Positions 51,350 through 63,636 of a stretch of DNA of 64,000 nucleotides are shown in pieces (position 1 is the stretch's first letter; the number at the start of each line of letters is the position of its first letter). The position numbers were made by a program, and so were the translations under genes. The stretch lies in NCBI RefSeq assembly GCF_019802285.1, contig NZ_JAIEUJ010000004.1, positions 62,001-126,000 on the forward strand, given 5' to 3'. A model generated the notes under the pieces. That model did not search any database and was not told the DNA's origin. It worked only from the letters and a program-made list of their open reading frames with translations. The DNA comes from Novilysobacter antarcticus. Its GTDB lineage: Bacteria; Pseudomonadota; Gammaproteobacteria; Xanthomonadales; Xanthomonadaceae.

Positions 51350-51421
51350 GGTATTGCAGGTATTGCGGGTATTACGGGTATTACGGGTATTACGGGTATT
51401 ACGGGTATTACGGGTATTACG
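51350..51421. repeat. 9-bp tandem repeat (8 units of GGTATTRCR)
   Basis: Eight head-to-tail 9-bp units: the first two read GGTATTGCA and GGTATTGCG, and the next six are identical GGTATTACG. A degenerate ninth follows. The array is between the thioesterase start (51259) and the small peptide gene end (51448). A 9-bp unit preserves reading frame and is prone to slippage, so its copy number probably varies among strains. It is not in a gene I believe in. Confidence 0.95.
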
Positions 51422-51447
51422 GGTTACGCGTATTGGCCTGGCACGGC

Positions 51448-61812: not shown

Positions 61813-63636
61813 ATGTTGATCGGTCAGGGTGGACTCAGCGGACTCACCAACCGCTTGCAGATGTTGGCACCGTTGCAGAACCTGCAGCGACCCGTGCCGT
61901 TTTCGCCGTTGCCACTGGGCACGAGCGGTCTGCGCGAACCGAGCTACCACCCGCAGCTGGCTTCGCTGTCCCCGGCGCGACTGGCGCCACAGGCCCCGCC
62001 GTCTCCCCCCAGCCCCTATGCCCTGCCTGCCGGCAGCACGCTGAAGGATGCCGTCAGCGGTACCAAGGCGCAGCCGTTCGATGTGACGATGTCGCAGCTG
62101 GCCACCTCGGTCTACGGAACGCGAGGCGCACCGCCCGAGGGCTGGAGCGCGGTCAGCGACTCGATGCTGGAATCACGCGGGATCGAGAACCCGGCCACCT
62201 GGCGCCAGGAATTCCTTGGCGGCGTCGAGCAGACCACCGCCAACCAGTTCAAGGCCGAGGTCTACACCGACGGGGAGGGAAACTTTGTCCTGGCCTATCG
62301 CGGCACGGCGGAAGGCGCGGCGGACTGGGGCGACAACTTCCAGCAGGGCCTGGGTTTCGAGACCGGTTCGGTCGACAAGTTCACCGGCCTGGCAGCCGAC
62401 AGCGCCATCGAGTTCGCCCGGGTCTTCGGCGATGGAGAACCCGGCGCCGCAACCAACCTGGCCATCACCGGTCACTCCCAGGGCGGTGGTCTGGCCTCCG
62501 TCGCATCGCTGGCCACTGGCATTCCGGCGGTCACCTTCGACGCCTCGGGCATCCACCCCAACACCTTGGACCGGTTGGGACTGGCCAGTCCCCAGCAGGC
62601 GCGCGACATCGCTGAAGGCGGCCAGATCCGCGCCTACTCGATGAAAACCGATCTGCTAACACGGGTGCAGGAGTCCGGCCCGCTTTCGCTGGCAGCGCCC
62701 GACGCGCTGGGCACCAAGATCGTGGTCGAGCCCAAGGGCATCGACCAGCACACGTTGACCGGACGCGCCGCAAAACACGAGTTCGACCTGCCGCTGCTCG
62801 GCCAGGCTGGCGCCAACGCGTTGGTGGAAGCGATGCGCAACAGCGGCATCCCGGTCATCAGCAGTGCCGGGCAACTGGCCTACAACGCGCTCAGCCACAG
62901 CCCCAACCTGCTCACCGACACCATGATTGCGCGTGAGCCCTGGCAAGCCGGTTACCAGAACCCGTCGGACTTCGGCAAATCCCTCCACGACATGGTGCCG
63001 GAAGGCCTGCGTGATGATTTCGCGCGCAACACCCATGAGGTGGCCGATGAGGTCGTCGGTGTATTCAAGACCGACATGGCGGATGGCAATTACCTGCAGG
63101 GTTCGGTGAAGATCGGCGGGCATGTGGTGGACGGCGTGCTCAACTCGGTTGGCGATACGATCCACCACACCGCGGAAGGCGTTGCGGCGCGCGTTGAAGA
63201 GCGGGTCGCCGGGCCGGCGGGCGATCTGTTGGCCGGTGCGATTTCGATCGGCGGCAAGGCTGCCCAGTTCACCGCCGACAAGCTCGGCGACGGGATTGAG
63301 CAGATCGCCGGCGTCCAGGGCGCGATGGTGCAGAACACCGTCGACGGCATTGTCTGGGCGGGTGGCAAGGCGATCGAAGGCATCCAGTGGACGGGCGAGA
63401 AAGCGATCCAGGGAAGCACCTGGGTGGCTGGGAAGGCCGTCGAGGGCGCCAAGTGGACCGGCGAAAAAGTCGTCGAGGGCGGTATCTGGGTCGCTGGCAA
63501 AACGGTCGAGGGCGCGAAGTGGGCCGGTAACAAAGTGGTTGAAGGCGCCACCGCGATCAAGGATGGTGTGACCAACACCGGCCGCGCGATCGGCGAGGCC
63601 GTCTCCAACTCGCGGGTCATGCCCTGGAACTGGTAA
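61813..63636 (+). CDS. Lipase-fold putative effector with six 11-residue C-terminal repeats
   Basis: 607 residues, no signal peptide, perfect AAGGAGG 7 bases upstream. A Pro-rich N-terminus of about 80 residues precedes a lipase_3-like alpha/beta hydrolase: YRGT at 162-165, nucleophile elbow GHSQGG with Ser222, and candidates for acid and base at Asp280 (MKTDLLTRVQ) and His313 or His322. Residues 513-578 are six exact 11-mers with invariant Trp, Lys and Gly. The layout (cytoplasmic lipase, membrane-active tail, ankyrin lipoprotein immediately after) fits an antibacterial phospholipase effector and immunity pair exported by a contact-dependent system. The secretion route is not shown by this sequence. 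Confidence 0.72.
   Translation: MLIGQGGLSGLTNRLQMLAPLQNLQRPVPFSPLPLGTSGLREPSYHPQLASLSPARLAPQAPPSPPSPYALPAGSTLKDAVSGTKAQPFDVTMSQLATSVYGTRGAPPEGWSAVSDSMLESRGIENPATWRQEFLGGVEQTTANQFKAEVYTDGEGNFVLAYRGTAEGAADWGDNFQQGLGFETGSVDKFTGLAADSAIEFARVFGDGEPGAATNLAITGHSQGGGLASVASLATGIPAVTFDASGIHPNTLDRLGLASPQQARDIAEGGQIRAYSMKTDLLTRVQESGPLSLAAPDALGTKIVVEPKGIDQHTLTGRAAKHEFDLPLLGQAGANALVEAMRNSGIPVISSAGQLAYNALSHSPNLLTDTMIAREPWQAGYQNPSDFGKSLHDMVPEGLRDDFARNTHEVADEVVGVFKTDMADGNYLQGSVKIGGHVVDGVLNSVGDTIHHTAEGVAARVEERVAGPAGDLLAGAISIGGKAAQFTADKLGDGIEQIAGVQGAMVQNTVDGIVWAGGKAIEGIQWTGEKAIQGSTWVAGKAVEGAKWTGEKVVEGGIWVAGKTVEGAKWAGNKVVEGATAIKDGVTNTGRAIGEAVSNSRVMPWNW
63349..63546 (+). repeat. Six in-frame 33-bp units encoding 11-residue repeats
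   Basis: Consensus xxW[TAV][GA][GEN]K[AVT][VI][EQ]G, six consecutive copies at residues 513-578 of the lipase-like protein, with the Trp, Lys and final Gly invariant. Periodicity of 11 residues is that of amphipathic 11/3 helices in synucleins, apolipoproteins and LEA proteins, which lie on lipid bilayers. DNA units differ at many third positions, so this is an old repeat kept by selection. Confidence 0.92.

Follow-up and report, generated by a model that had tools for sequence, protein, structure and literature searches.

What does the long, repetitive C-terminal tail of a candidate lipase effector contribute to the enzyme, and do the relatives of this protein support a role for it at the membrane? 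The gene lies near the end of the stretch of Novilysobacter antarcticus DNA analysed here (the window, 64,000 nucleotides), and a first-pass annotation had read the repeats near the end of its product as a membrane anchor of the synuclein kind. The gene, its parts and its downstream neighbour are as follows.

61813..63636, + strand: Tle6-like lipase effector candidate of 607 amino acids, from the open reading frame and domain matches
62053..62802, + strand: lipase domain, spanning approximately residues 81-330
62476-62478, + strand: putative nucleophile Ser222 within GHSQGGG; Ser kept in 36/36 aligned members
62650-62652, + strand: putative catalytic acid Asp280; Asp kept in 35/36 aligned members
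63025..63348, + strand: first part of the tail, residues 405-512, amphipathic at 98 degrees and without Trp repeats
63349..63546, + strand: six Trp/Lys/Gly 11-mers, residues 513-578, from TRF and lag-11 identity
63547..63633, + strand: C-terminal end, residues 579-607, with MPWNW as the last residues
63637..64000, + strand: start of the gene for a 255-residue ankyrin lipoprotein (the rest lies beyond the window), likely the immunity protein

The window protein exceeds the Pfam cut-off of the Mbeg1-like family (25.1 bits, cut-off 21.1) and scores below that of Lipase_3 (16.6 bits, cut-off 22); its nearest named relative is from Lysobacter sp. A03 (94% identity). Residues 103-288 match the T6SS lipase effector of Enterobacter cloacae (7ubz/9cys) with an E value of 1.5e-10, and the two share the GHSxGGG nucleophile motif. 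The authors of the Enterobacter study propose the name Tle6 for their effector and, in the part of the text available, describe phospholipase activity and an Arg-Lys glycation crosslink and state that an ankyrin immunity protein is invariably encoded alongside a Tle6 lipase (Jensen et al., 2024, PMC11470151). The E. cloacae enzyme is paired with the ankyrin immunity protein Tli, and the window lipase likewise adjoins a downstream ankyrin lipoprotein gene, whose product carries a lipobox-like SATGC. The two enzymes differ in layout, as the lipase domain of E. cloacae Tle6 is C-terminal (residues 172-472, according to the accessible text of PMC11470151), whereas the window protein continues for about 275 residues beyond its lipase domain, including the 11-mer tail.

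Homologous proteins were collected from 395 genomes of the family, drawn out of a larger group, and from picked regions. At least 176 of the 395 genomes give a lipase match among the matches listed, which include many shorter relatives. We kept homologues of at least 440 amino acids (65, including near-copies and some duplicated loci) and reduced them to 38 nonredundant proteins at 80% tail identity, a set biased towards tail-bearing proteins because 20 picked regions and most of ten others had been selected by long open frames or by a tail match. The alignment has 36 rows and omits L055 and one L056 frame. An ankyrin-like open reading frame follows the lipase in 37/38 nonredundant homologues (64/65 with near-copies), the single exception being L055, where bases are masked; a strict lipobox pattern is present in 16 of those 37 frames. 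On these sequence grounds the window gene is likely a Tle6-like lipase effector candidate and the downstream ankyrin protein its likely immunity protein, so that the effector status proposed for the lipase by the first-pass annotation gains support from both domain and neighbour. Elsewhere in the window, between two minus-strand frames at 51350-51424, a 9-bp unit, GGTATTACG, is repeated about eight times with 96% matches; the site may be an upstream region that is prone to slippage.

The six repeats at 63349-63546 read IVWAGGKAIEG, IQWTGEKAIQG, STWVAGKAVEG, AKWTGEKVVEG, GIWVAGKTVEG and AKWAGNKVVEG. They are unbroken 11-mers in which W, K and the last G each occur in 6/6, exactly as first described. 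The array is visible in the DNA as a 66-bp unit (TRF score 185), and over the last 200 residues of the protein the lag-11 identity reaches a z of about 7, a value to be set against 42 comparison open reading frames of at least 250 residues from the window and its downstream flank, none of which reaches 2.5 (best 2.3). Over 50 units from seven tails, the repeat consensus has K/R at position 5 (46 units), D/E/Q at position 8 (42) and G at position 9 (39), and positions 3, 6, 7 and 10 are mostly small, with Gly at position 3 in 32 units. Gly makes up 21% of the window repeats, in which V, I, T and W are also numerous. The aromatic end recurs as well, with W or F among the last four residues in 32/38 tails.

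Comparison of the 38 nonredundant tails showed that the 11-residue period is a property of the whole domain. The lag-11 identity of these tails has a z of 36.5 and the lag-22 identity a z of 21.9, while the lipase domains of the same proteins give 6.4 and 3.7; individually, 34/38 tails have a lag-11 z of at least 2.5. In the 26 tails without Trp arrays, hydrophobicity is strongly positively correlated at lags 4, 7, 11, 15 and 18 and strongly negatively at lags 2, 9 and 13, a pattern that constitutes a helical signature. The Trp parts of seven Trp tails, with Trp masked, repeat this pattern, lags 4, 7, 15 and 18 being positive and lag 2 strongly negative. In a set of eleven proteins that includes four close orthologues, 63/70 Trp spacings (the last pair left out) are either 11 (54) or 18 (9), and both spacings preserve one helical face. 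The 66-residue tail of the first-pass annotation therefore stands as a repeat array but is merely the end of a family-wide domain of about 200 residues, and what is conserved among homologues is the 11-residue helical periodicity and not the Trp array.

Trp arrays occur in 8/36 aligned rows. These eight do not group together on the lipase tree: they require four changes, three of which are forced by well-supported branches, and a single clade is rejected with an AU p value of 2.6e-11. We therefore rejected the idea that the Trp tail was simply inherited. The smallest well-supported group contains ten rows besides that of the window, none of them with Trp arrays. This scatter suggests several origins or transfers of the Trp form against a shared background of 11-mers, whether by independent gain or by tail exchange. 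A Dokdonella lipase, from another family, has 57% identity to the window tail in the best segment and 49% over the aligned tails, compared with 38% for the whole protein.

We then asked where else the tail occurs, using a profile built from five tail rows with no lipase sequence and searched at E 1e-4 against 398 genomes of the order. The profile matched 7/398 genomes, and all seven proteins carry a lipase domain; two of them had been part of the query and five came from other genomes, so the search for the repeat in other effectors that had been proposed at the outset returned lipases throughout. Two of these five, L072 and L069, belong to the class-3 lipases and are not matched by the window protein at E 1e-8; L072 also has a Phasin_2 match below the cut-off. 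Eleven-residue repeats away from lipases do exist, in a Zymomonas plasmid protein and in a small lipoprotein-like frame of genome G766. A tblastn search of plasmids and phages with the tail returned Zymomonas records only, and Phrogs gave one match (E 0.37). The plasmid protein (L041:3959-4840, Zymomonas mobilis pZM36) has eight 11-mers of the NWVKEKVRQAL type followed by a likely membrane segment, and no lipase; its Apolipoprotein, Synuclein and Perilipin scores are below the cut-offs and its Grg1 and Docking scores above them.

To place the side chains we projected the repeats on an 11/3 helical wheel, which puts the aliphatic residues on one side, K, D and E on the other, and Trp among the charged residues. 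In the seven tails of the common Trp type, mean Trp directions lie at -136 to -156 degrees relative to the aliphatic side; ten tails were examined, and the remaining three give 38 degrees (L037, near the aliphatic side), -48 degrees (L006) and -76 degrees (L056), Trp being scattered in the last two. The idea that Trp and Lys are well placed for insertion into the bilayer thus finds no support in the sequence, since Trp lies on the charged side, some 150 degrees off the aliphatic face. A single amphipathic helix with its Trp residues in the bilayer was rejected on this ground, as Trp faces away from the aliphatic residues in all seven common-type tails. The relative L037:1441-3306 has another Trp consensus, of the WNTATDVAGSA type; its Trp residues fall on the aliphatic side, and it keeps the MPWNW end.

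The amphipathic character of the repeats depends on the scale and on how Trp is counted. With Trp included on the Fauchere-Pliska scale, 348/1000 shuffles of the window repeats reach the observed moment at 98 degrees, which is not significant, 992/1000 do so in a scan of 90-110 degrees, and the best moment is found at 131 degrees. Once Trp is masked, or the Eisenberg scale is used instead, 0/1000 shuffles reach the moment in each case. The amphipathic 11/3 helix proposed earlier is thus upheld by the latter two measures and not by the first. Residues 405-512 of the tail give 0/1000 at 98 degrees. Among other arrays scored on the Fauchere-Pliska scale with Trp, those of L004 (431 per 1000), L051 (187) and L005 (176) are not significant and those of L052 (21) and Dokdonella (1) are; two array-free stretches fail the same test, that before the Dokdonella array (162/1000) and that of L058 (97/1000). 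The window repeats alone, Trp masked, show weak correlations at lags 4, 7, 15 and 18 (z 0.3-1.4), and their Chou-Fasman means do not favour helix (1.05 versus 1.01).

The resemblance to synucleins extends from the 11-residue phase to the order of residues. Against Synuclein PF01387 (Pfam gathering score 23.3 bits) the whole window protein scores 17.2 bits, or 22.4 bits in a six-frame search, both below the cut-off, and the 66-mer alone 23.6 bits, just over it, whereas the Dokdonella relative reaches 27.7 bits as a whole protein and 31.9 bits as a segment and also exceeds the cut-off of the Senescence domain (26.0 versus 24.6). Column-permuted decoys matched Synuclein in 1/9 cases for the window (11.5 bits) and in 2/9 for Dokdonella (best 17.9 bits), and 2/9 Dokdonella decoys exceeded the cut-off of an unrelated family; repetitive sequence can thus score by chance, which makes the 23.6 bits of the window weak evidence and the Dokdonella match firmer. 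This residue order is rare: a phylum-wide six-frame search found PF01387 at E 0.001 in 2/374 genomes, with the window genome, included by design, as the best, and none of the 374 genomes rose above the Pfam cut-off. The other match, L081:1390-1719 (reverse strand numbering) in G766, is the small lipoprotein-like frame, with 11-mers of the KTKETAERVAD type. The synuclein-like phase pointed out in the first reading is therefore real, and the HMMER alignment shows a likeness in residue order too. The window tail differs from synucleins in having a Trp in each repeat and in being bacterial and fused to a lipase, and the likeness would more likely reflect convergence on one 11-mer code than descent.

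Perilipin offers a second comparison. Plin4 forms a long helix of 11-mers that is only slightly hydrophobic and whose polar face is charged, as far as the available text of PMC5889406 describes it, and in this respect is comparable to the window tail; its helix is, however, said to lack bulky residues (PMC8064757, available in part), unlike the window tail with its Trp in each repeat. The window protein has no match to Perilipin PF03036 up to E 1, and among ten proteins compared the scores were 10.5 bits for L037 and 13.5 bits for the Zymomonas protein P0002 (cut-off 33). Among bacterial effectors, WalE1 of Wolbachia has an alpha-synuclein-like region, binds and bundles actin, and is given no other domain homology in the accessible part of PMC4958246. 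It thus resembles the window tail in being a synuclein-like bacterial effector and departs from it in its actin bundling, and the family match is weak (NF047982: window tail 17.5 bits, Dokdonella 22.9 bits, cut-off 90). With WalE1 already described (PMC4958246, in the part available), synuclein-like effectors are not a new idea. Among the literature matches listed, which cover few subscription papers, we recognised no account of 11-mer tails on lipase effectors, nor of the link of synuclein-like repeats to lipases, their spread or their repeated origin.

Our preferred reading, which we hold tentatively and at a little short of even confidence, is that the protein is an antibacterial phospholipase of the Tle6 kind whose 11/3 helical tail lies on a lipid surface and holds the enzyme on the membrane. 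The observations under this reading are the repeats, the helical periodicity across the family, the similarity to lipases, the ankyrin gene next to it and the T6SS sheath gene of the genome; from these we infer its enzyme activity, delivery, lipid binding and toxicity, and the role of Trp. The tail of about 200 residues would consist of 11-residue helical repeats, with the six Trp repeats near its end, and would be loosely folded in solution, as synuclein and perilipin are. On a lipid surface it would form a long 11/3 helix whose small aliphatic residues (V, I, A, T, G) face the lipid while the charged side points outward, and in this way may keep the enzyme at the membrane of the cell it is injected into, the site of its substrate. 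The Trp residues would form a ridge on the outer, charged side, where contacts with other helices, headgroups or envelope glycans are likelier than insertion into the bilayer.

The strongest competitor, although we consider it unlikely, is a hendecad coiled coil or self-packing helical bundle serving as an oligomer or stalk, in which the small Gly/Ala/Val face would pack helix on helix and lipid would be incidental. Hendecad coiled coils have their hydrophobic core at a, d, e and h, and the small residues at repeat positions 3, 6, 7 and 10 match this spacing; Trp on the opposite side could meet a partner, and an 11-residue helical phase is not specific to lipid binding. The core would, however, be unusually small and Gly-rich, given the frequency of Gly at position 3, the best Pfam score of the repeat segments is Synuclein, and the proteins matched by the tail profile all carry a lipase domain.

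A second alternative is that the tail serves secretion or loading and packs the effector for export by the T6SS or some other machinery. The window genome (G000) contains the T6SS sheath gene TssC on the same contig, about 40 kb before the window start, and gave no match to VirB10/TrbI; the T4SS signal XVIPCD (PF20410) has no match in the window protein and is not one of the 19 families listed across the 36 aligned proteins. Among the matches listed, 33 of the 395 genomes have the strongest lipase matches (E 1e-60 or better), and TssC is found in 16/33 of these against 91/362 others (p 0.007), whereas VirB10/TrbI is found in 17/33 against 186/362 (p 1.0). TssC was not found in the Dokdonella genome, whose TrbI match is partial (a 141-residue frame with an internal stop). 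Genomes G128, G243, G180 and G005 have a lipase match at E 1e-60 or better and matches to neither TssC nor VirB10/TrbI, a second search again giving no TrbI in these four; they may use a different delivery route or have lost a system. The T6SS as the sole delivery route was rejected as a general rule, as 17/33 genomes with the strongest matches among those listed lack TssC.

The C-terminal position of the tail, its variation between species, the sheath gene in the genome and the enrichment of TssC would suit a loading domain, but the strongest-match genomes that lack TssC do not, nor do the Trp tails, with their four changes on the lipase tree, three of them forced. A further point against it is L069:1891-4008, a T4SS lipase effector candidate (XVIPCD 3.3e-29). 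Like the window protein it has a class-3 lipase followed by 11-mer repeats, which give a weak Apolipoprotein match below the cut-off; unlike it, L069 belongs to a different lipase group and ends in XVIPCD, with the 11-mers between the two. Since the protein has a known secretion signal elsewhere, its repeats probably do not act as one. We therefore regard a loading domain as improbable; with the tail profile matching lipases in 7/7 cases, one of them bearing a separate T4SS signal, a role of the repeats in lipase function is likelier than one in export.

Structure prediction bears on a further possibility, that the Trp repeats adopt a beta structure, either a solenoid or stacked strands, perhaps for binding envelope glycans. 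AlphaFold2 on three sequences gave no helix in the repeats, which were mostly coil with a pLDDT of 23-25 (mean 33), and with the tail alone, as one sequence, gave weak strands at low confidence (pLDDT about 53-64). These strands are regularly spaced in the repeats, and the Gly content, the frequent V, I, T and W and the best moment angle of 131 degrees would also suit strands. AlphaFold2 without an alignment is, however, unreliable on tandem repeats; the Trp spacings of 18 and 11 keep a helical face and would disrupt an even coil, and the Trp-masked lags of the seven Trp tails, positive at 4, 7, 15 and 18 and strongly negative at 2, run against strands, so that we think a beta-solenoid very improbable. 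The predictions being of low confidence and free of helix, the case for a helix rests on periodicity.

The evolution of the array speaks to whether it has a function at all. Within the window, repeats 3 and 5 (0.73 of residues) and 4 and 6 (0.82) are most alike, and synonymous differences between repeats (ps 0.37-0.89) are high relative to nonsynonymous ones (pn 0.12-0.49), which indicates that the array is no fresh duplication. Four orthologues of the genus have 6, 6, 5 and 5 repeats, and the two with five lack Gly in places (VDAAR, AIQST, VDVAK), so the invariance of Trp, Lys and Gly claimed at first holds within the window protein and not across its orthologues. Over these four, dN/dS is 0.06 in the lipase and about 0.18 in the repeats, residues 405-512 also giving 0.18. 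A low-complexity linker that slippage has lengthened, with no specific function, would fit the varying repeat number and the nearest lipase-tree rows without Trp arrays, but is the least probable reading of all in view of this dN/dS, the excess of synonymous differences between repeats and the Dokdonella tail, which is more similar (57% in the best segment, 49% aligned) than the whole protein (38%).

If the lipid-lying helix is the right reading of the tail, a wider proposal follows that we put forward as possible, though on the doubtful side: an 11-residue helix of the synuclein/perilipin class may be a reusable membrane-holding module that was gained or swapped more than once among bacterial weapon lipases. 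It would serve in two secretion contexts (Tle6-like, and T4SS with XVIPCD), and its Trp form, with the Trp ridge on the outer face, would be a bifacial variant unlike the lipid-lying helices known to us. The available part of PMC11470151 gives no description of a substrate-finding step for Tle6. If true, the proposal would explain how interbacterial lipases find their substrate and stay on it, would show that bacteria have their own natural version of the 11-mer code of synucleins and perilipins, and would offer many natural variants for testing which residues set lipid choice.
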